Shown here: piece by piece, positions 5,253 to 16,009 of the stretch
Layout of the letters: every line of letters begins with the position of its first letter
Numbering within the stretch: the stretch's first letter is position 1
Source of the DNA: Sulfitobacter sp. BSw21498
Lineage (GTDB): Bacteria > Pseudomonadota > Alphaproteobacteria > Rhodobacterales > Rhodobacteraceae
Assembly: GCF_006064855.1 (NCBI RefSeq)
Contig: NZ_CP040753.1
Location: forward strand, 620,001-684,000
DNA: 64,000 bases
Reading direction: 5' to 3'
The notes under the pieces: model-generated
Told to the model about the DNA's origin: nothing
Database searches by the model: none
What the model saw: only the letters and a program-made list of their open reading frames with translations
Made by a program: the position numbers and the translations under genes

Positions 5253-8200
5253 CTAGCGTGAGACGGTTCCACCCAAGACGACTCCAACCCGAACGGTGAA
5301 GTAGACGCCGTCGCGTCCGGTAATGACTTTTGCAATCATTTGGGTTTTGTCCAACAACATTTGGAGGTATTTTTTTTCCCGCTCTTGTCTTCCATTTAGT
5401 CGCCATATGAATGAGCTGTGGCGGAACAAGTTCAAGAGGTTTGTAGTTTCACCTTTGTCATCAAACACTCGCCAAAGAGCCGCGTGACAACGGTCAAACA
5501 AAGTAAAGAGACGTTCATTGTATAGATAGTGATATGCTTCAACTAGTCGCGCTCGTTCCATATCATTTAAATCACTAATTTGCGCAGTATGGGTCGCCAA
5601 GTCTACAACTGAGCGAGCGGCTGTATAATGATCACCCTTCAAGATCGATTGTTCCAGGGCCTTTCGAAGAAGCGATACAGAATCATTGCCATTTTTTCGC
5701 GCTAGATCCGCAATGGTTAGCTGAATGTTGCTAGCAATAACGGAACTCTTCTTTTTCTCCGCCTTCCGTAACAGCCTATTTAGCTGAAGCAATTTCTTCT
5801 CTTCATCGACGGTTTGCTCAGCGATGATAACTTCTGCATGCAATGCTTGATTGGTGTGTTTCGATATTTTTATCACGTCCTTTGCGGCTTGAATTGCATC
5901 TGCTGTCTCATCCATGCTGTCCAAGCAGAGAGCATAGCTCAACTTAGCTAACTGCTTTTGTGGTCGGTTGAGCAAATCATAGTCTAGATCTTCAAATAGC
6001 ACCTTTGCATCGATATGCTGCCCGGTCATTCGAAGCGACCTTGCGTGTGCATATTTGAGAAAGTTAACCTCTGAGACTAGATCCGAACCTTTACCTAATA
6101 AACTCAAAATATCCTCGCAAAGTCTGCTAGCACTTCTAAAATGATCCCCATCGATGAGTTTTCCAATAAATGCTGAAGCCAATGCCGTCGCCGCTCTAAT
6201 TTCCTCGTCCTCGTCTAATTCAAGTGCCCTGTTTAGGGCGCGATAAATGAGCGTATTTGCATTAACAATCTCATGGTCCCCGCATACTGCTAGAGCCACT
6301 CGTCTGGCGATCTGAGACTTTTCTATATTTCCGGATTTCCAATCATTTCCGAAAAAGAGATTGAGTGCGCCCACGTCAATTTGTTTAGCTTTCTCAGCAT
6401 CTGTGATTTCTCGGATGTATTCTCGCACAGGTCTTGGGACCGATAGTGTTTTAAAAGTGGACGCTTCTTGTATACCATCCAGCTGCACTAGAGTGCTGGT
6501 GTCGATTAAAGATCTTTCATGCAAGATGCGAGCGTGGACTGGGCCAAATGGATGGGGGCCCAGAAATCGTTTGAGGGTAGCTAATTGTTCGCCCCTTGGC
6601 AGTGCAGAAAGTGCAAGCAACAACTGAAATGCTCTGCCAGTGTTTCGATCTTCCGCACCCTGTAAGTCTGATACCGCAGCTACTAATCCTGATGGTACCG
6701 AACCACCAACAACTTGGCTGTCCGAATAGTCTGGGTCAACCGCAACCAACTCTCCGATAGACATGTATTCTAGATCCCGTAAAGCAGAATCAATCCGGCC
6801 GGGAACACCATCTGTGTGACGGAACAAGATCGATGCGTTGGCGGGTTTACTATAAGTCTCACTGCCAAGTTCACTTTCCTTGACGTAGATAGCTAGATCA
6901 GGCTCATCGAGTGGCTTAAGCGTAATAATCCGGAATGTTACGGATTTGGGCGGTTTCCTGCACCGTAAGACAACGAATGCTTCAGGTGCATAGTCTCGGA
7001 TCGTTTGAGCAATATCCTCTACGTCAAGAAGTACGCTTCCTTCGATGGGGCTTTGAAGCGTAACCTCAATATCATTGAGGACCAAAATACACTTCCCGGC
7101 ATCAGATAGGGCCTCACACATATCTGGAAATGTAGTTCCAAATTGAATTTTGAAACTTTCGAGAAATGCTTCTCTACTTGAAAAATCCGACAAATTTACA
7201 TAATAAATGTCCTTAATTGTGGCATCAACGTCTTCAATGATGGAAGACAGAAAGCCGTCGAGCCCCATTCCCCAATCTGAAGCCACCCAAAGCACGCGAT
7301 CGCTCTTTAAGAATTCAATGCAGGTGCTTCTTTCCAAAGCTCGAATTCTCTTATGGGCGCTTGTAGACTCTGGTGATTGCTGTCGAAGCAAATCCATATC
7401 AAATTTGCTATCAACATTGAGTGAAACTGCCTGTTCTTCGGCTTTAACATTAGGATCGGCCACCAACGCCAATGGCCGCGGTTTCTTCGAATCTTGATAA
7501 TCAAAAGAGAAACTATTTGTATATTCATCAAGATCCAACGTAAAGTCTGGCTTTAGCTTGAGGCTACCATCACTGACTTTTGTTAAGCGGCGAGGCCAAC
7601 ATTGGAATTTCTTACTAGTTGCCTGAGATGAAATTTCGTTGTTGGAATATCCTTGAATTCGATCAATTTCGCCCCCACCAAAGGTTTGAAGGCCAAACAA
7701 AGACGCGGCTTGTAGCTCCCTCCTCGGGCTACTACCGCCGATCGTAATCGTCCTAGCTGTAGGTTCGTGCATGTGCCCGAACAGATGCAGGTCGAATCGA
7801 CCGGAAGGGTTAACATCATTTTCCCATGTGGTTGAGCCTCCTGCATTCAACCAACTAGGTGGTTGGTGAGTAACAATAAGGTTTATGTCATTTTTACTCG
7901 CCCAAGCATCTGGATCTCGATCTGTAATCGCTAGTAATTGTTTGGCATCAACGTGCAATTCACCTTCATAGTCACCACCACCGAGTTGCAACCAAGTCGA
8001 GTTAAGCGCAGCGATGCCAACTTGGGTGTCCTTTTTCTTAAATATGTATGAGGCGTCGCCCGGCAATAGACCAATCTTCTCTGGCTCCAAATGTAAGCCT
8101 TCTGAGATGGCATTACTTCTCCAAACCATAAACTGTTCAAAACACTGGCCTATAAAAGTACGGTATTGAGATCCTTCAGCCCAAAATTCCCCTCTTAACG

Positions 8201-8552
8201 CATCGTTTTTCCAATATTGTGAGAGTGCAATGGCCTCAGCCGAGCTTGATTTCGGGCGCTGTAAGTCATGGTTTCCAGGGACCGTCAAGACTTGAGGCCT
8301 ATCTTGAAACTGGTCTATGTGGTCCAGAATATCGCGCAAAATTTCGTCAAAAGCTTCGAACTCACTAGCCGCACCAAACTGTACAAGGTCACCTGAAAAC
8401 ACTACGAGATCAATTGGACCAGTACGATTTTGCAGATTTTCAAGATCATCCAGTAATAGGGTTTTGAAGCGTGGCCACATATCTTCCAAACCACTAGCAC
8501 CTACGTGTATGTCGCTAAAATGTAGCCAACGAAAACCGGTTGAATCAGTCAA
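5253..8552 (-). CDS. Metallophosphoesterase with degenerate STAND-like NTPase and helical repeats
   Basis: Large protein of about 1099 aa with three parts. Residues 5-270 are a calcineurin-like metallophosphoesterase with all blocks visible: HFSDIH (11-16), SGDLV (53-57), GNHD (93-96), THQPP (228-232) and GHMHE (259-263). Around 405-500 an NTPase-like core shows a degenerate P-loop (ASDWGMGLDGF near 424, lacking the GK[ST] lysine) and a Walker-B-like CILVLNDIE (488-496). The C-terminal 450 residues are alpha-helical and resemble TPR repeats. The frame is open to TTG 8597, but AAGGAG lies just upstream of TTG 8552, giving MTDSTGFRW. AT-rich composition and nearby IS elements suggest horizontal transfer. 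Possible roles are nucleotide-signal cleavage or phage defence; neither is shown. Confidence 0.75.
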   Translation of the reverse strand: MTDSTGFRWLHFSDIHVGASGLEDMWPRFKTLLLDDLENLQNRTGPIDLVVFSGDLVQFGAASEFEAFDEILRDILDHIDQFQDRPQVLTVPGNHDLQRPKSSSAEAIALSQYWKNDALRGEFWAEGSQYRTFIGQCFEQFMVWRSNAISEGLHLEPEKIGLLPGDASYIFKKKDTQVGIAALNSTWLQLGGGDYEGELHVDAKQLLAITDRDPDAWASKNDINLIVTHQPPSWLNAGGSTTWENDVNPSGRFDLHLFGHMHEPTARTITIGGSSPRRELQAASLFGLQTFGGGEIDRIQGYSNNEISSQATSKKFQCWPRRLTKVSDGSLKLKPDFTLDLDEYTNSFSFDYQDSKKPRPLALVADPNVKAEEQAVSLNVDSKFDMDLLRQQSPESTSAHKRIRALERSTCIEFLKSDRVLWVASDWGMGLDGFLSSIIEDVDATIKDIYYVNLSDFSSREAFLESFKIQFGTTFPDMCEALSDAGKCILVLNDIEVTLQSPIEGSVLLDVEDIAQTIRDYAPEAFVVLRCRKPPKSVTFRIITLKPLDEPDLAIYVKESELGSETYSKPANASILFRHTDGVPGRIDSALRDLEYMSIGELVAVDPDYSDSQVVGGSVPSGLVAAVSDLQGAEDRNTGRAFQLLLALSALPRGEQLATLKRFLGPHPFGPVHARILHERSLIDTSTLVQLDGIQEASTFKTLSVPRPVREYIREITDAEKAKQIDVGALNLFFGNDWKSGNIEKSQIARRVALAVCGDHEIVNANTLIYRALNRALELDEDEEIRAATALASAFIGKLIDGDHFRSASRLCEDILSLLGKGSDLVSEVNFLKYAHARSLRMTGQHIDAKVLFEDLDYDLLNRPQKQLAKLSYALCLDSMDETADAIQAAKDVIKISKHTNQALHAEVIIAEQTVDEEKKLLQLNRLLRKAEKKKSSVIASNIQLTIADLARKNGNDSVSLLRKALEQSILKGDHYTAARSVVDLATHTAQISDLNDMERARLVEAYHYLYNERLFTLFDRCHAALWRVFDDKGETTNLLNLFRHSSFIWRLNGRQEREKKYLQMLLDKTQMIAKVITGRDGVYFTVRVGVVLGGTVSR

Positions 8553-8850
8553 AATGCGATACTCCTTAGTGCGACAATGCACGCACCCTGATTGCAAAGC
8601 TATTTCCTTTCAAGGGAATGATGGCCTTAAAGGGATGGTTTGGCAGAAAACTGTCGCGACTGTATGCCTCTATATATATTCGCATACGCAGCGAATGCCC
8701 GCATTCCGCCCTTTCAGCGCGCGACGTAAGTAGAGTTTTCCCACCCAGCTGCATTGGTTTACTGTCCAAAGTCGCCTGCCATTGTTTCCTAACAATTCAA
8801 CTAATGCGAATATCATGGCACATCGGTTCGGTGTGTGAAACATTTCGGAT
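8553..8850. promoter_or_regulatory. Divergent intergenic region
   Basis: About 300 bp between the minus-strand phosphoesterase gene and the plus-strand unknown gene. It must hold both promoters. It includes an AT-rich TATATATATTCGCATACG tract near 8671-8690. No operator could be assigned and the reading frames across it look spurious. Confidence 0.35.
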
Positions 8851-9573
8851 ATGATCGAATACCAAACCCTCGCTGACGACCATCCCGACCTTTTACAGTC
8901 ACCGCTGCTACGTGCAGCTCTTCTAACCTTGCAATATACGCAAGAACACGGATCGATAGGGATCACTAAAACCAAGGCGTTCAAGCGTACCTTCGTGCAT
9001 TGGGCTGTACAGAATTTTGACTGGCCCGGAGAAGGTGCGGATGAGGTATTCCGTTATCATAAGGTGGTCAATGAAGCCGACTTCGCTCCGCTCGAAGTGC
9101 TGCACTTCCTGCTGATCGAATTACGCCTGGGTCGCCACTTCAAAGATGAGTTCCGGCTCACCAAGCGTGGCAAAGAGTTGGCCCAATCCCCCGGGCGCTT
9201 ATTTGTCGAATTGATCCCGTATTTTGTACACGAGGTCGATCACACCTCTTATGCGCGCTTTGATGACCAACCCTTCGGGAATTGGGATGTCTGGATGAAT
9301 GTGATCAACGTAGAGGCCGATCACGGCATCAGCGACGTTGCCTTATACCAAAAGTTCTATGTTGAACCGGAGAGTGACCGCAATGCTGCCAAGCGGGACA
9401 CATACGCCTTCAAGGCCTGCGTTTTGCGACCGCTTGAATGGGCCGGACTGCTGATGTCGTCCCAAGAGCAGGGCTTGGAAATGCGCGCTGTCCACGTGTT
9501 TAAAAGCCCTCTCTGGCGCAGTGTTTTGAAGTTAGACACTGACGATATGCTTCAATCGGTACTCTTGCAGTGA
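8851..9573 (+). CDS. Uncharacterised 240-aa protein
   Basis: I do not recognise a named family. The protein is soluble and mixed alpha/beta with no signal peptide or membrane segment. Notable stretches are LLRAALLTLQYTQEHG (15-35), GITKTKAFKRTFVHWA (38-53), LEVLHFLLIELRLGR (near 80-95) and FRLTKRGKELAQSPGRLF (about 100-117). The last resembles the winged-helix 'LTKRGKEL' segment seen in some plasmid or mobile-element proteins, which would fit a DNA-binding or replication-associated role, but this is weak. ATG 8851 follows a short AT-rich leader. It is divergent from the phosphoesterase gene and upstream of the SOS polymerase pair. Codon use looks like a real gene and the frame is uninterrupted. 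Confidence 0.65.
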   Translation: MIEYQTLADDHPDLLQSPLLRAALLTLQYTQEHGSIGITKTKAFKRTFVHWAVQNFDWPGEGADEVFRYHKVVNEADFAPLEVLHFLLIELRLGRHFKDEFRLTKRGKELAQSPGRLFVELIPYFVHEVDHTSYARFDDQPFGNWDVWMNVINVEADHGISDVALYQKFYVEPESDRNAAKRDTYAFKACVLRPLEWAGLLMSSQEQGLEMRAVHVFKSPLWRSVLKLDTDDMLQSVLLQ

Positions 9574-9721
9574 GGTGCTCTTCACATTCTGTAAGCACGG
9601 CAGGGGCTTAGGGCGCTATCCTCCATCGTTGAGTTTGCAAACTCGGTTCGTTCTGATGCCAGTCTCCTGTCCGCATTGCCCCAAACCAAACTTGACATCG
9701 GGCAGGTGAATCGCCGATTGA

Positions 9722-9736
9722 GAACAAATAGCGAAC
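9722..9736 (+). promoter_or_regulatory. LexA (SOS) box upstream of umuD-like gene
   Basis: The sequence GAACAAATAGCGAAC is an exact GAAC-N7-GAAC, the direct-repeat operator bound by LexA in alphaproteobacteria. It lies 14 bp upstream of the umuD-like ATG, where bound LexA would block transcription. It predicts DNA-damage induction of the umuDC-type operon. Confidence 0.85.
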
Positions 9737-9749
9737 AGTTAGGATTTCT

Positions 9750-10184
9750 ATGCCCGTTTACCCAGTTGATGAACCCGTCCACATGCCTTCCCAACCTGTT
9801 CGAATTGTCAGCACACCAGTCAGCGCAGGTTTTCCTTCGCCAGCTGGAGACGACCTCGAAGATGAGATCGACCCTATGGCATGGGTGGTTAGACATCCTG
9901 CATCGACTTTTTGGTGGCGCGTGGAAGGGGACTGCCTCTGGGACGCTGGGATACGTGATGGTGACATCATCGCTGTAGACCGTGCTGGCAAGCGCCGCAT
10001 TGGGCGAGCCGTGCTGGCCGTAGTGGAGGGTGCTGTCACAGCAAAGATCCTGCGTAAAAGAGGTGACAGGTACTACCTCGCGCCTGCGAATAGCCAGGAG
10101 CAGTTCCCCGACGTCGAATTGACAGAGGATAGCGAGATCTGGGGCGTCATCGCTGGTGTTGTCCGGCGTTACGACTTGGCATGA
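9750..10184 (+). CDS. umuD: UmuD/LexA-like autoprotease subunit of DNA polymerase V, with Cys at the catalytic Ser position
   Basis: Homologue of UmuD (S24/LexA peptidase fold), 144 aa, which after RecA-stimulated self-cleavage activates the translesion polymerase encoded next door. The cleavage region SAGFPSPAGDD (Ala26-Gly27) is intact. The active-site block reads VEGDCLWDAGIRDGD, where the family has GDS: the nucleophile position is Cys62 (codon TGC). The general-base Lys is present at about residue 99 (VTAKILRKR). ATG 9750 lies just after an SOS box and its stop overlaps umuC by 4 bp (ATGA), indicating coupled translation. The substitution could leave slow or thiol-based cleavage, or none. 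Confidence 0.88.
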   Translation: MPVYPVDEPVHMPSQPVRIVSTPVSAGFPSPAGDDLEDEIDPMAWVVRHPASTFWWRVEGDCLWDAGIRDGDIIAVDRAGKRRIGRAVLAVVEGAVTAKILRKRGDRYYLAPANSQEQFPDVELTEDSEIWGVIAGVVRRYDLA

Positions 10185-11452
10185 AACGGCCTATTGCCAT
10201 CAGTGACAGCGCGAACTTCTATGTGAGCGCTGAGCGCATATTCGATCCAACGCTAAAGAACGTCCCGGTGATCGTGCTATCCAATAACGACGGCTGCGCC
10301 ATAGCGCGCAGTGACGAGGCCAAAGCCTTGGGGATCAAGATGGGCACTCCGCTGCATCACATCCGCGATAAAGTCGAAGCCCATGGTATCCGGGTTTTCA
10401 GCTCCAACTACACCCTCTATGGCGACATCTCTCGTCGGGTGGTTGAGGTCTATGAAGACTTTACGCCAAACGTCGAGATCTATTCCATCGATGAGTGCTT
10501 CCTCGACTTTGTCGGGTTCAAAGACCGCACTGCACATGCCATGGCACTGCGTGCAGCGGTTCTAAGGAGGGTAGGGGTGCCAGTACGCATCGGCATCGCA
10601 CCGACCAAGACACTTGCGAAATGCGCAAATGATATCGCCAAGAAGAACCCCATCTTTGCAGGGGTCTTGGATATGATGGATGAGAGCCTTGCAAGCTGGC
10701 TGCTGCCACGCGTGCCCGTCGGGGACATCTGGGGCGTTGGTCGAAAGACCACCGACAAGTTGAAGGCCCTGGGTGTACACACGGCAGCTGATCTTCGTGA
10801 TCTGCCAATTCGGCAAGCCCGGGCTGTCGGCACTGTGGTGCTGGAGAGGATCGTGTTGGAGCTACAGGGTGAGGCCTGCCTCGCCTTTGAAGACGTAGAG
10901 CCACAGCGCAAAGGTATGGCTGTAACGCGGTCCGCAGGCACTCCGATGACAGACTTCGACACGCTGTTCCAAGCGATCACTGCGCACGCATCACGGGGCG
11001 CTGAAAAGCTACGCCAGCACGGCTTGGTTGCTGGTACGCTGACTGTGTTCTTTCACACCAATAAGCACCGGCCAGATCGTCCTCAGTATGCAGCATCCAG
11101 AACAACCCGCATGACACCGATGTCGTCGGATACTTTGGATCTCGTTGAAGCTGCTCGACGCTGCGCTGAAGCTGGCTGGCCAAAGTCAGATACCGAAACC
11201 TTTGGCTTCACCAAGGCCGGCATTATGCTGAATGATCTGGTGCGGTTTGAAGATCGCCCTCAAACGCTCTTCGACCAAGCCCGTCCGAAATCACCGGCTT
11301 TGATGAAGGCTTTAGATGAGGTGAATGATCGGTTCGGGAAGAAGACAATCGTTCTTGCAAGCGAAGGTATGGAGCAGACGTGGCGACTTCGCGCAGATCA
11401 TCGAAGCCCGCGCTATACCACGCGAATGGAAGATCTACCGGTGGTGCGGTAG
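10181..11452 (+). CDS. umuC: Y-family translesion DNA polymerase V catalytic subunit (UmuC)
   Basis: Error-prone polymerase that copies damaged DNA during the SOS response, 423 aa, the usual UmuC length. Catalytic carboxylates are present: Asp9 in ISDSANFYVSAERIF and Asp104-Glu105 in IYSIDECFLDF. The fingers motif VLSNNDGCAIARSDEAKALG is intact, followed by helix-hairpin-helix residues (DIWGVGRKTTDKLKALGV) and the C-terminal FGFTKAGIMLNDL block of UmuC proteins. The ATG overlaps the umuD stop. It is co-regulated by the SOS box at 9722. Such cassettes are common on mobile replicons, and this one lies next to the IS-rich region. Confidence 0.93.
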   Translation: MKRPIAISDSANFYVSAERIFDPTLKNVPVIVLSNNDGCAIARSDEAKALGIKMGTPLHHIRDKVEAHGIRVFSSNYTLYGDISRRVVEVYEDFTPNVEIYSIDECFLDFVGFKDRTAHAMALRAAVLRRVGVPVRIGIAPTKTLAKCANDIAKKNPIFAGVLDMMDESLASWLLPRVPVGDIWGVGRKTTDKLKALGVHTAADLRDLPIRQARAVGTVVLERIVLELQGEACLAFEDVEPQRKGMAVTRSAGTPMTDFDTLFQAITAHASRGAEKLRQHGLVAGTLTVFFHTNKHRPDRPQYAASRTTRMTPMSSDTLDLVEAARRCAEAGWPKSDTETFGFTKAGIMLNDLVRFEDRPQTLFDQARPKSPALMKALDEVNDRFGKKTIVLASEGMEQTWRLRADHRSPRYTTRMEDLPVVR

Positions 11453-11799
11453 CCGGGCGAACTTGTCCAAAAGGTTTAGATCGTTCTGCGAAGGGCTGGG
11501 TTTAGGCTGGTTGTTCGCTTCGAGCCAGCCGCCAACGAATGCAGTGATATCGCAAAGACACTTAGCTTACGCATTGCATATTCGATATTGAAACAAGTTC
11601 CTGATGAGCATGCACAAGCCGAGCTTTGGACACAAGCGGCTTCAGTCGCAGAATATCCGTTGCCGATATAGCAAGGCAAGTTGGTTAGATTGAGACTGGG
11701 GTTGTATGAATGGTTTGCCGCCAGCTTGATCGAAGCTGAGGCGGATTGTAGCGATCTGAACTGCGAATTCAGCTTAGCAGAATAGCGTAGAATATATAC
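11453..11799. other. Non-coding or decayed stretch after umuC
   Basis: No convincing gene. A roughly 63-codon open stretch on the plus strand (about 11480-11671, ending ...AEYPLPI) has coding-like composition but no good start or ribosome site and may be a gene remnant. No terminator hairpin was recognised. Confidence 0.4.
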
Positions 11800-12293: not shown

Positions 12294-12360
12294 TGACCTG
12301 CCCCCCGAAACTTCCCTCAGTTTAATGTAGAGTTTGCTCAACCTTCGAAGGAGCAAACAG

Positions 12361-12624
12361 ATGCGACAGAGCCGTTTTACTGAAGCCCAAATTATCGGAA
12401 TGATCAAAGAACAGGAAGCTGGCATGCCGACGGCAGAGGTGTGCCGCAGGCATGGCTTGAGTCCCGCGTCGTTCTACAAGTTCAAAGCCAAATATGGTGG
12501 CATGAACGTTTCTGATACTCATCGCCTTAGATCGCTGGAGGATGAGAACGCCAAGCTGAAGCGCCTTCTGGCGGACACGATGTTGGACAATGTTGTGTTG
12601 AAGGATTTGCTGGGAAAGAACTGA
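12361..12624 (+). CDS. IS3-family transposase OrfA (inner IS)
   Basis: DNA-binding helper of the transposase, 87 aa, with the HTH_8/HTH_Tnp_1 fold: [17 protein letters not shown], then the turn [18 protein letters not shown], then a leucine-rich coiled coil ([19 protein letters not shown]) ending DLLGKN. ATG 12361 follows AAGGAGC. The orfB frame is -1 relative to orfA and stays open upstream through GKELTTPNV, so an OrfAB fusion by -1 frameshift near GGGAAAGAA (12612-12620) is likely, as in other IS3 elements. Confidence 0.88.
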
Positions 12625-12635
12625 CGACACCGAAT

Positions 12636-13520
12636 GTGCGACGGGCCGCAGCACGCAAGGCAATGCGAGACCATGATATCTCGCAGCGCCGGGCGTGCAG
12701 GCTTGTCGGTGTCGATCCCAAGACCGTCCGGCGCGATCAGTCACCGGATAATCCAGAAGTTCGCGAAGAGATGAAAGCGATTGCCAGCAAGCGACGGCGC
12801 TTTGGCTACCGCCGGATCGGTGTGCTGCTGGAACGCAAGGGAAGGATCATGAACCACAAGAAACTGTATCGCCTTTATACTGAAGAAAAGCTGGGCGTTA
12901 GACGGCGCAGGGGCCGCAAGCGTGCGCGTGGCTCGCGGACACCAATGCCGGTTGCTTTGCGTCCTGGCGAGCGTTGGTCCTTAGATTTTGTGTCGGATAC
13001 GTTCGGCGCGTCACGCAAGTTCCGCATGCTGGCTGTAAACGACGATTGTTGCCGCGAGAACCTCTGCTTGGTGGCTGACACCAGCATCTCGGGCGCTCGT
13101 GTCGCGCGGGAACTTGACGCGCTTGTCCGTATTTATGGAAAGCCTGCCTGCATTGTCAGTGATAACGGCACGGAGTTTACCAGTCGTGCGATCCTAAAAT
13201 GGGCCGGTGATAACGACGTTGATTGGCATTACATCGACCCCGGCAAACCCCAGCAGAATGGCTTCATAGAAAGCTTCAATGGCAGCCTGCGCGACGAGCT
13301 GTTGAATGAGGAAATCTTCGATACGTTGGATGACGCCCGTCGCAAGCTGGCACTCTGGCGATACGACTACAACAACGTCAGGCCGCACTCATCGCTTGGG
13401 AACCAAACACCGGCAGAAGCTCGTCGAGCGCTTGAGCAATTTGAGGGCTCCGCGCAAGACGCGCTTGCCCAAACTGACGACGAAGAATATGAAACCCAGA
13501 CCCGCAAACTCTCGTTATGA
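12636..13520 (+). CDS. IS3-family transposase OrfB, DDE integrase core (inner IS)
   Basis: Catalytic part of the transposase, about 294 aa from GTG 12636, although it is probably made as an OrfAB frameshift product. It contains the HTH_21 stretch ([16 protein letters not shown]) and an rve-type DDE core: first Asp in WSLDFVSD, second in VSDNGTEF, Glu in NGFIESFNG, all present. The end ([16 protein letters not shown]) is typical of IS3 OrfB. No interruptions, so the enzyme is likely functional. It differs clearly in sequence from the outer element's OrfB, so these are two distinct IS types rather than copies. Confidence 0.9.
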
Positions 13521-13546
13521 ATGAGGGAGCCTCGGGGGGCAGGTCA

Positions 13547-14274
13547 GTTTCGCGGGCGTCACCCAGTGTTCCAAACAACGTTTCGTTGAGACATTCGTCT
13601 CGTAGCTTGCCGTTGAAGCTTTCGATAAAGCCATTCTGCTGGGGTTTTCCAGGCGCGATGTAATGCCAATCGATACCCGTGTCTTGAACCCATTTGAGGA
13701 TCGCCATACTGGTGAACTCAGTTCCGTTGTCTGAAACTATTGTCTTCGGCATGCCTCGTTCTGCGATCACCTTGTCCAGTTCACGAGCAACCCGGTGTCC
13801 GGACAGCGATGTATCAGCAACCAGAACCAAGTTCTCACGACTGAAGTCATCGACGACTGCCAAGATGCGAAACCTGCGCCCGTCTGTCAGCGCGTCTGAC
13901 ACGAAGTCCAAGCTCCAGCGTTGGTTCGGGCCATCCGGCAGCACCATTGGCTTCCTTGTGCCCAAAGCACGCTTTCGGCCACCTCTACGGCGTACCTGAA
14001 GCTTCTCTTCGACGTAAATGCGCCTGACCTTTTTGTGGTTCACGACAAAACCCTCCTGCGCAATCATCACGTGGACACGACGACAACCAAACCGTCGCCG
14101 TTCTCGCGAAACCCGTTTGATAGCATCTCGCAGTTCAGCATCATCACCACGACGCGACAGATACCGCACCGATGACCGATCAACTTGCAGCACATCGCAC
14201 GCCCGTCGCTGACTGACCTGATGAACTTCCATCAAGTGAACCACAGCTTTCCGCTTCGCTACGGGCGTCACCAC
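13547..14274 (-). pseudogene. IS3-type OrfB, N-terminal and core fragment of the outer element
   Basis: About 242 codons of the outer transposase from MVTPVAKRKAV at 14274 through the DDE motifs ([24 protein letters not shown]) to FGTLGDARE, where the inner IS begins. Its frame then runs on by chance into antisense sequence of the inner IS down to 13378. Without the insertion it would continue into the fragment at 12178-12293. It is likely inactive in the present arrangement. Confidence 0.88.
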
Positions 14275-14531
14275 TTTTTTGAATTGATGTCTCGCAGCAT
14301 GGCGTTGTCCAACATCTGTTCGGCCAGTAGCTTCTTCAGCTTACCGTTCTCGTCTTCCAACGCTCGCAGCCGCTTCGCGTCAGACGGCTCCATGCCGCCG
14401 TACTTCGATTTGTATTTGTAGAACGTCGCTGAACTGATCCCATGCCGCCGACATACATCGGCAGTCTTCTCGCCAGATTCCTGTTCCTTGATCATCGCTA
14501 TGATCTGTTCGTCCGTAAATCTCGCCTTCAT
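14268..14531 (-). CDS. IS3-family transposase OrfA (outer IS)
   Basis: Small helix-turn-helix protein of 87 aa (MKARFTDEQIIAMIKEQESG, then TADVCRRHGISSATFYKYKS, then a leucine-rich helix ending INSKKW). It overlaps the orfB start by 7 bp in a different frame, the usual IS3 layout. ATG 14531 is preceded by AAAGGACGGAC. It is intact, but its partner OrfB is split. Confidence 0.88.
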   Translation of the reverse strand: MKARFTDEQIIAMIKEQESGEKTADVCRRHGISSATFYKYKSKYGGMEPSDAKRLRALEDENGKLKKLLAEQMLDNAMLRDINSKKW

Positions 14532-14630
14532 TTGTCCGTCCTTTTGTTGGGCGGACTCTACACAAATTTGGAGGAGTTTTAGGGGCTCAGGTCAATGCCG
14601 TCAGCGTTCAGGAGCCGGCTAATATAGGGG

Positions 14631-14835
14631 CGGGATCAGCATTGTGTGCCCCGAAAGCGGCGAAGTCGAATTCGTCGAGGTGGAGGGGGACCCCTATACC
14701 ACAAACATTTATACCACAAACATTTGCTTTGGCGGTGAGGGTATGAGCGATGCATGGATTACGGCTTCAGGAACGGGATGTCTTTATGGCGCGCGCTGGA
14801 AGGCACCAGGCCTTCGCTTGAATTATAACGGGTGA
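14631..14835 (+). pseudogene. 3' fragment of an SMP-30-type gene, diverged copy of the end of 4143-5057
   Basis: The DNA from about 14631 to 14893 closely matches 4867 to about 5116, including the stop codon and some 50 bp of downstream sequence. The encoded end (MCPESGEVEFVEVEG, WITASGTGCLYGARWK, LRLNYNG) is nearly the same as in the intact gene, with several substitutions. It lacks the first three quarters of the gene, and an in-frame 15-bp tandem duplication inserts an extra YTTNI. The match stops where the IS110-type element starts. It looks like the remnant of a paralogue or of a duplication broken up by IS activity. Confidence 0.8.
14696..14725 (+). repeat. 15-bp tandem duplication in the SMP-30 fragment
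   Basis: ATACCACAAACATTT occurs twice in a row (14696-14710, 14711-14725); the intact gene has it once (near 4933-4947). The frame is kept. Confidence 0.9.
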
Positions 14836-14974
14836 AACGGGAGCTATTTTTGTTACACTGGGAGATGGTAATATGTCGCGAACGGCCCAAAGCATACGTA
14901 ATTGGGCTGGCCTCTGTTCTGAGGTCGAGCTCCCGATGAGATCACAGGATTACTGTGAACAAGGGAGATGAGAA

Positions 14975-16009
14975 ATGGAATATTTTGCCGGAATAGACGT
15001 GTCGCTGCGATCCTGTGCGCTTTGCATTGTTGATGGCAAGGGAAAGGTATTGCTTGAGCGAGAGCTGCCATGCGAGGTCAGCGACATCGCTGAGTATCTT
15101 GGAACGTTTCCCCATCCGATTGAACGGGTTGGTTTTGAAGCCGGCACCATGAGCCAGCATCTGTTCCATGGCCTGAAAGCGGAAGGTTTTGACGTTGTCT
15201 GCATGGAAGCACGTCAGGTGAATGCAGCGCTGTCGGCAATGCGCAACAAGACAGACAAAAATGACGCACGCGGCATCGCGCAAGTACTGCGCACCGGTTG
15301 GTTCAGCCCTGTTCACATGAAGAGCCGCGAAGCGCATGGCGTCCGTGCATTGCTGAGCACCCGCAAAGCGCTTTTGAAGAAGACGATGGACCTCGCCAAT
15401 GAGGTTCGTGGGCTGTTGAAGATCTTTGGCATTCGCCTGCCCATGACCGTGAAGCACGGCAGTTTTGACGGTGTCGTGCGACCGTTGATCGAGATGGATG
15501 AAGTTCTGACCCACGCTTTGGTGCCACTCTTGGACGCACGTGTGGTTTTGTATCAGCACTTTCTGGAACTGGATCGGCGCGTCAAACGCGCTGCCAGTAA
15601 TGATGAGGTGTGCATGCGGATGATGACGGTCCCAGGCGTTGGTCCGATTGCATCCCTGACTTTCAAAGCCGCTGTGGACGATCCGACGCGCTTCAAACGA
15701 TCTCGCACTGTTGGCGCGCATTTTGGGCTGACACCGCGACGATACCAGTCTGGTGAGCACGACAATCCTGGCCGCATATCGAAAGCGGGGGACAGAGACG
15801 TCCGCGCAACTTTGTACGCCGCGGCCAACGCTTTGCTCATGCGAACGATGGCCGGGTCTCAGATCAAATCGTGGGGCATGCGGTTGATGCGCACCAAGGG
15901 ACGTCGCCGCGCCGTTGTGGCTGTCGCACGCAAACTCGCCGTCTTGCTCCACCGGATGTGGATTGATGGCACGGAATTCCGTCAGGATCAGGTGGGAGGC
16001 AAAGCATGA
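14975..16009 (+). CDS. IS110-family transposase (DEDD RuvC-like plus Transposase_20)
   Basis: Site-specific recombinase-like transposase, 344 aa, full family length. The N-terminal RuvC-like domain starts FAGIDVSLRSCALCIVD (first Asp, about residue 8), with the later acidic residue in VGFEAGTM (about 50) and the basic/acidic KTDKNDARGIAQVL block (about 91-105). The C-terminal Transposase_20 domain contains MMTVPGVGPIASLTF, RSRTVGAHFGLTPRRYQSG and a candidate catalytic Ser region near SKAGDRDVRATLY. ATG 14975 follows AAGGGAGATG. No stop codons interrupt it, so it may be active. IS110 enzymes use an element-encoded bridge RNA for target choice (family knowledge). Confidence 0.93.
   Translation: MEYFAGIDVSLRSCALCIVDGKGKVLLERELPCEVSDIAEYLGTFPHPIERVGFEAGTMSQHLFHGLKAEGFDVVCMEARQVNAALSAMRNKTDKNDARGIAQVLRTGWFSPVHMKSREAHGVRALLSTRKALLKKTMDLANEVRGLLKIFGIRLPMTVKHGSFDGVVRPLIEMDEVLTHALVPLLDARVVLYQHFLELDRRVKRAASNDEVCMRMMTVPGVGPIASLTFKAAVDDPTRFKRSRTVGAHFGLTPRRYQSGEHDNPGRISKAGDRDVRATLYAAANALLMRTMAGSQIKSWGMRLMRTKGRRRAVVAVARKLAVLLHRMWIDGTEFRQDQVGGKA

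Follow-up and report, generated by a model that had tools for sequence, protein, structure and literature searches.

ATP-driven switching is the usual description of STAND and NLR receptors. This work concerns a gene in a 64,000-nucleotide stretch of the Sulfitobacter sp. BSw21498 genome (assembly GCF_006064855.1, contig NZ_CP040753.1, positions 620,001 to 684,000; hereafter "the window", with positions counted from its first letter), the product of which combines a metallophosphoesterase (MPP), a STAND-type fold with an altered P-loop, and tetratricopeptide repeats (TPRs). Several described systems resemble it. DS-8 (DefensePredictor, E. coli; NCBIfam NF053861) is a single protein that joins a metallophosphatase to a NACHT domain, and its catalytic and NACHT residues are reported to be required for defence (PMC13092281). 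SAMD9 and SAMD9L are animal antiviral proteins with bacterial members, in which a SIR2-like domain, a STAND-like NTPase without the lysine and TPRs follow one another (PMC5445408, PMC13245274). iSTAND and iSTAND2 are inactive STAND modules of conflict systems, acting as third components of MoxR-vWA ternary systems, and calcineurin-type effectors are named on other STAND and TRADD-N proteins (PMC8195603). Finally, STAND-repeat proteins of P4-type hotspots have had their effectors exchanged among TIR, SIR2 and nuclease domains, and are discussed as ATP/GTP-dependent (PMC9122126). Among the titles and abstracts listed by literature searches, with subscription journals and preprints largely uncovered, none describes a family in which MPP or SIR2 is followed by an inactive STAND module and TPRs.

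The gene lies on the reverse strand (Table 1); its TTG start codon at position 8552 is preceded by AAGGAG, and its frame runs open for 1099 aa to a stop at 5253. At E ≤ 0.001 it is a single copy in its own genome. We read the product as a stand-alone, horizontally acquired, NLR-like anti-invader receptor that would switch without canonical ATP hydrolysis and release an MPP acting on nucleic acids or nucleotides, and we assign this reading a probability of about 0.66. It is supported by the MPP ligands, the STAND fold, the altered P-loop, selection (nonsynonymous divergence, dN, below synonymous divergence, dS), effector exchange, patchy distribution, mobile copies, the genes next to relatives, proximity to CBASS in one case, and the precedent of DS-8.

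The AlphaFold model of the protein is good (predicted local distance difference test, pLDDT, 87.9) and gives the domain order MPP, STAND/NLR fold, winged helix, TPRs. The effector-switch-sensor layout proposed in a sequence-only reading of the window is supported by this model and by the exchange of the effector. That reading had also described all five MPP blocks as intact, and each was located: SDIHVG at residues 13-18, SGD at 53-55, PGNHD at 92-96, TH at 228-229 and GHMH at 259-262. Eight MPP ligand positions were checked in 151 distinct family sequences of at least 980 aa (the window's included; all counts out of 151 below refer to this set), and they are conserved wherever aligned, seven sequences being without the first block. 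Profile matches of the MPP include SbcD/Mre11 nucleases (2e-6) and Rv0805 (3.7e-5); being sequence matches to both kinds, they do not separate the two activities. A Pfam match to FtsX_ECD in the protein falls under its cut-off and was disregarded.

The best VIA matches of the middle domain are CED-4, APAF-1 and plant NLRs, with the CED-4 match extending to the end of the sub-model, winged-helix part included. The model has the nucleotide-binding, helical and winged-helix (NBD-HD-WHD, or NOD) fold of the STAND superfamily. The Foldseek list for the middle domain also includes ORC/Cdc6, clamp loaders and other AAA+ chains, among them rank 2. Profile support comes from hhalign, the local alignment of which spans Walker B to winged helix, with the P-loop outside. 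A search of the middle domain against PDB sequences returned one weak match, and Pfam STAND, NACHT or NB-ARC models are listed neither for the window protein nor among the 25 of 34 families listed for the core set (mostly TPR, plus AAA_14 and AAA_22 in one member each). The STAND assignment therefore rests on the structure and on hhalign. The sequence-only reading had named the lack of a P-loop-like domain in the middle of the protein as an outcome that would speak against it, and the model shows such a domain: SDWGMGLDGF occupies the STAND P-loop place, between a strand (420-425) and a helix (431-438). LVLNDIE, which had been proposed as Walker-B-like, likewise sits on the Walker B strand (489-495), with the qualification that its first acidic position is an Asn in this copy: position 493 is D in 125/151 sequences and N in the window protein, where D stands at 494. 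DGVPGRID (581-588) contains the GxP motif of STAND proteins (G582/P584); both of its columns are invariant in the 16 cores of alignment A8.

The absence of GK[ST] from this P-loop was correctly called. Its description as the degeneration of one protein did not hold, since not one of the 151 sequences has GK[ST]. W427 is invariant; the Lys position is K in 17 sequences, and the Ser/Thr position holds S/T in two, never together with K, and D/E in 126. By these comparisons, the change is a family-wide trait rather than the decay of a single protein. The scan that gave the family also gave 38 other MPP loci; 18 of these carry G....GK[ST] at residues 400-495, by eye in several unrelated settings, while many of the remaining 20 stop before these residues or carry other partners. 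MPP domains of the loci outside the family (L040-L081) are joined, again by eye, to NB-ARC-like, NACHT-like, GPxKFGKT-type, GTPase-like, caspase-like, TIR-like and TPR partners. Within the family, a deep-branching MPP clade has GK[DE] in five of eight rows (L028, L030, L031, L032 and L061; not L033, L035 or L075), and in 14/19 rows of an enterobacterial SIR2 clade, near-duplicates included, the motif is GWGYGK[F/L/S]GF. A simple graded loss of the Lys is unsupported, as only these five of the eight deep-branching rows keep K, and P0140, which joins the SIR2 clade, is without it.

These counts bear directly on how the switch would work. We favour one without canonical ATP hydrolysis because the P-loop is without both Lys and Ser/Thr. 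Alternatively, the W/D-type loop may bind ATP, ADP or another nucleotide through GxP and Walker B, with activation by nucleotide exchange as expected for DS-8. Such an unconventional nucleotide-driven switch is a sizeable minority possibility: Asp prevails at Walker-B position 493, GxP is retained, Lys is found in the 17 sequences above and in all 19 enterobacterial SIR2-clade rows (two of them with GKS), and a NACHT residue is reported to be essential in DS-8 (PMC13092281). It is opposed by the failure of Lys and Ser/Thr to co-occur in any of the 151 sequences and by the loss of the first Walker-B Asp from the window copy.

The altered P-loop and Walker B of the window copy could also be taken as loss of function in a decaying gene, and several relatives are indeed split into two open reading frames (ORFs). 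This explanation is highly improbable in view of the full-length open frame with its ribosome-binding site and of the same P-loop state across 151 sequences. It was rejected on the strength of one close pair of relatives, L021 and L057, the only one with unsaturated dS, in which dN (0.00-0.04) is below dS (0.08-0.29) in all eight segments.

This core is also found joined to a SIR2 or TIR domain where the MPP would be, an observation new to this work. Firstly, a plasmid tblastn search returned seven records, two MPP-type and five matching residues ~390-1067 only; in four of these five (H3, H4, H6 and H7) the match contains an annotated SIR2 protein or has one immediately upstream, and three of the four plasmid proteins scanned contain Pfam SIR2_2, the fourth being a shorter ORF behind an IS6 gene. 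Secondly, with residues 397-1099 as query, 81 proteins were found (the window's included), among them P0131 with TIR/SEFIR and P0139 and P0140 with SIR2_2. A 16-row core profile found 19 proteins, 16 with SIR2_2; all five with an organism name are Enterobacterales. Some 8000 best word-sharing candidates were scored in these two protein searches. Megablast of two SIR2 versions against complete E. coli genomes returned no match, although one protein cluster (P0146) is named from E. coli.

The 16 cores, of MPP, SIR2 and TIR types, align across their full length, and SSxxWR near the C terminus (residues 1046-1051) is invariant in them (a further SIR2 row, P0160, has GSxxWR). A tree of 88 cores (66 MPP, 21 SIR2 and one TIR, labelled by domain content) needs three effector changes, where two is the minimum possible; P0139 and P0140 sit on long branches in it, P0140 grouping with the SIR2 clade, and the TIR type is a single protein. 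In approximately unbiased (AU) tests on 40 rows, a single SIR2 clade (p-AU 0.0018) and a single MPP clade (p-AU 6.6e-5) were both rejected, the single-origin test having been picked after the first tree was seen. As part of the reading given above, and held with the same confidence, the shared core would be a swappable switch-sensor cassette.

SIR2 and TIR are NAD-consuming effectors. Because these are the alternatives for which the MPP is exchanged, a cell-directed nucleotide or nucleic-acid hydrolase is the favoured role for the MPP. Two further observations were made on the plasmid copies. In five of the nine annotated copies with an effector part (L116, L118, L119, L120 and L122; the nine are H1, H2, H3, H4, H6, H7, H10, H14 and H16, with the effector of H10 presumed by position), effector and core occupy two ORFs with the break at their junction, which may reflect damage, sequencing error or a two-gene form. 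Two SIR2 versions, on different plasmids, have a gene for a TrlF family AAA-like ATPase nearby (L112 1-1964, L113 1849-4464).

At E ≤ 1e-5 a search that scored the 7996 best candidates recovered 475 proteins, counting that of the window itself, and 115 of the 120 listed are 1000-1200 aa long. Relatives occur in Alpha-, Beta- and Gammaproteobacteria and, by record titles, in Nitrospiria, Geobacter, Acidobacteria, Bacteroidetes and a Clostridia metagenome-assembled genome. Three near-full-length copies lie on viral contigs, and on a Proteus plasmid a SIR2 ORF and a core ORF are found 2.3 kb from CBASS genes. Distribution is patchy: genomes drawn from the taxonomic family (394), from the class (385, a draw that overlaps the first) and from the genus (62) were searched, and in each set the window's own genome is the sole carrier. 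A conserved single-copy core gene, which the sequence-only reading had named as the outcome that would speak against it, is thus not what was found, the core being present in 1/62 genus genomes.

Next to 41 of 42 loci of relatives (L036 has no flank), the 150 nearest genes were collected. One is a fragment of a family gene that is split, which leaves 149 for the test; for the controls, 20 stretches of the same contigs yielded 293 called genes, of which 141 were used. PADLOC models matched among the neighbours are restriction-modification, Cas8f, AbiLi, AbiEii, PD-Lambda-2 and PDC candidates. At E ≤ 1e-40, up to 12 neighbours match against a single control, the latter to AbiEii, a model also matched among the neighbours (Fisher 0.003); where names overlap the count goes down to 9 (Fisher 0.02). 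At E ≤ 1e-15, up to 20 match against up to six controls (mad3 twice, mad8, AbiEii, DrmC and Csa3; Fisher 0.007). In these comparisons member counts are inferred from family names, and genes within one locus are non-independent. A recurrent partner gene was sought, and no neighbour family is present in more than 4/42 loci; MoxR/vWA partners of the iSTAND type were not searched by name, 25 of 209 neighbour Pfam families being listed. Relatives' neighbours match defence models more than controls do; the window itself is no defence island.

Several points weigh against an anti-invader receptor of the kind proposed. (i) Since Lys persists in 17/151 sequences and throughout the enterobacterial SIR2 clade, nucleotide binding may survive in part. 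(ii) The C-terminal TPR patch is strongly conserved, FRHSSFIWRL being the second most conserved 12-residue segment behind an MPP active-site block, and by sequence it is unlike a fast-evolving pathogen sensor. (iii) A search of a phage-genome collection returned no match. (iv) The cut-offs for the neighbour excess were fixed after matches had been seen, and on the lower reading at E ≤ 1e-15 (14 against 6; 0.11) the excess is not significant. (v) PADLOC on the 43 other window ORFs gave one DrmC-like match only; as this model also matches among the control genes, the window does not count as a defence island. The last result lowered our probability for the receptor from 0.68 to 0.66 and slightly raised that of a different explanation: a phosphoesterase receptor that serves stress signalling or housekeeping and plays no part against invaders, its mobile surroundings being incidental. 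MPP enzymes have many roles in cells, and the conserved C-terminal patch and the lack of a recognised defence system in the window would suit such a protein. We nevertheless consider it unlikely, given a gene restricted to one genome in each of the three genome sets, the lack of any neighbour family in more than 4/42 loci, the exchange of the effector with SIR2 and TIR, and plasmid copies, one of them near CBASS.

The sequence-only reading had further called the gene AT-rich and acquired, and both descriptions agree with its composition, distribution and surroundings. GC content is 45.4%, against 55.8% for the window, and at third codon positions 0.417, against 0.485-0.763 in the nine neighbouring ORFs examined. 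One flank holds a TRAP-type transporter (by eye) and MarR and SMP-30 genes (Pfam); the other holds a 240-aa ORF, umuDC and then, by eye, insertion sequence (IS) elements. The umuDC block (8801-11471) is 91.6% identical to that of a congener without the core, and over the 19-kb stretch compared, similarity ends at 8801, adjoining the gene. The 240-aa protein, widespread on plasmids of Alphaproteobacteria, has a match in 9/60 related genomes, the window's included. As in the window, an MPP-type copy on a Pseudomonas plasmid has umuDC next to it (L118 5847-7545), and a UmuD-like gene (by eye) clusters between L022 and the window. Helical repeats had been put at about 450 residues; the model is helical from 707 to 1097, and the repeats proper are shorter, at ~380 residues, preceded by helices (546-620) and the winged helix.

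Table 1. Features of the gene and its surroundings (window positions).
Feature	Positions	Strand	Remarks
Whole gene, MPP - pseudo-STAND - TPR	5253..8552	-	1099 aa, TTG start; full-length relatives
MPP (calcineurin-like phosphoesterase) effector, residues 5-355	7488..8540	-	
Nucleotide-binding-fold domain, STAND type, residues 397-545	6918..7364	-	
Degenerate P-loop SDWGMGLDGF, residues 425-434	7251..7280	-	GK[ST] 0/151, W427 151/151
Walker-B-like LVLNDIE, residues 490-496	7065..7085	-	First Asp is Asn in window copy
Helical domain, residues 546-620, GxP motif in DGVPGRID (581-588)	6693..6917	-	G582 invariant, P584 nearly so (60 rows)
Winged-helix domain, residues ~621-718	6399..6692	-	Model strands 684-687 and 701-704 between helices; CED-4 match
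TPR-type helical repeats, residues ~719-1097, putative sensor	5262..6398	-	Model, TPR-protein matches, TPR Pfam matches in A8 members
Conserved C-terminal patch NLLNLFRHSSFIWRL, residues 1038-1052	5397..5441	-	FRHSSFIWRL stretch
Divergent neighbour, 240-aa protein, plasmid-type	8851..9573	+	No Pfam match; 219 plasmid records, mostly rhizobial
umuDC-like pair	9750..11452	+	Named by eye from translations
Two IS3-like elements and IS110-like transposase cluster	12334-16009		By eye

The proposed receptor could operate as follows. At rest, the TPR array and the STAND fold would keep the N-terminal MPP inactive. An invader-derived signal bound by the TPR region would then act as the trigger, upon which the STAND fold may rearrange or assemble without canonical ATP hydrolysis, a step suggested by the sequence of the P-loop. 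The released MPP would cleave nucleic acid or a nucleotide and the infected cell would be stopped, a proposal made by analogy to DS-8 and to the versions that carry SIR2 or TIR. More speculatively, the proteins may form a distinct NLR-like family of bacterial immune receptors that abandoned the ATP-hydrolysis switch long ago in favour of a purely ligand-driven latch, with SSxxWR as a site and MPP, SIR2 or TIR as the weapon, in parallel to, and perhaps related to, the core of animal SAMD9, a STAND domain likewise without the Lys; we hold this wider proposal tentatively. A family in which the fold is kept, selection is retained, the effector has been exchanged more than once and the P-loop is lost offers a direct test of the need for ATP hydrolysis in receptors that share their architecture with human APAF-1 and plant disease-resistance proteins. 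Beyond DS-8, it adds a separate family of receptors with MPP effectors, and it provides a bacterial comparison for SAMD9, the P-loop of which is likewise without the lysine.

The family can be set beside the described systems. iSTAND and iSTAND2, compared by description, share a STAND fold with eroded NTP-binding motifs; here, in contrast, one polypeptide has its own enzyme and TPRs, and no partner recurs in 42 loci. Proteins of the P4 hotspots and Avs share effector exchange on a STAND-repeat chassis, and Foldseek matches the core to Avs3 (8dgc_A, E 8.9e-7). PADLOC model matches of family proteins are confined to the MPP or SIR2 part; that to PDC-S60 covers positions 3-244 of a 1027-position model. 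SAMD9 shares the order SIR2, Lys-less STAND, TPR with the SIR2 version of the core, but its P-loop is GG[T/S] (PMC5445408), where the family has WGxGx[D/E]GF (GLD in the window), and it has AlbA and OB domains (PMC5445408, PMC13245274), whereas the window model is without a C-terminal OB fold. Human SAMD9, likened by domain order, is analogous in layout and has a P-loop loss of its own.

DS-8 is likewise a single gene with an N-terminal metallophosphatase. Unlike DS-8, the window protein matches NF053861 over the MPP alone (residues 11-270; 64.4 bits, cut-off 790) and is missing the canonical NACHT P-loop, which is intact in the DS-8 relative L107 (GESQSGKTTL), a contig-edge piece itself below the NF053861 cut-off; L103, L105 and L107 were examined of six such loci. 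In L103 (1081-3624), the N terminus is, by eye, TIR-like in place of the MPP, and the DS-8-type core that follows has an intact GKS. The gene had been put forward as the window's best candidate for an undescribed system. The kind, a single-protein MPP and NACHT defence system, is already known, because DS-8 was tested by others; the window protein fails NF053861 and the P-loop is altered throughout its family, and what the family adds to that kind is a set of NLR-like receptors with a fixed pseudo-P-loop.

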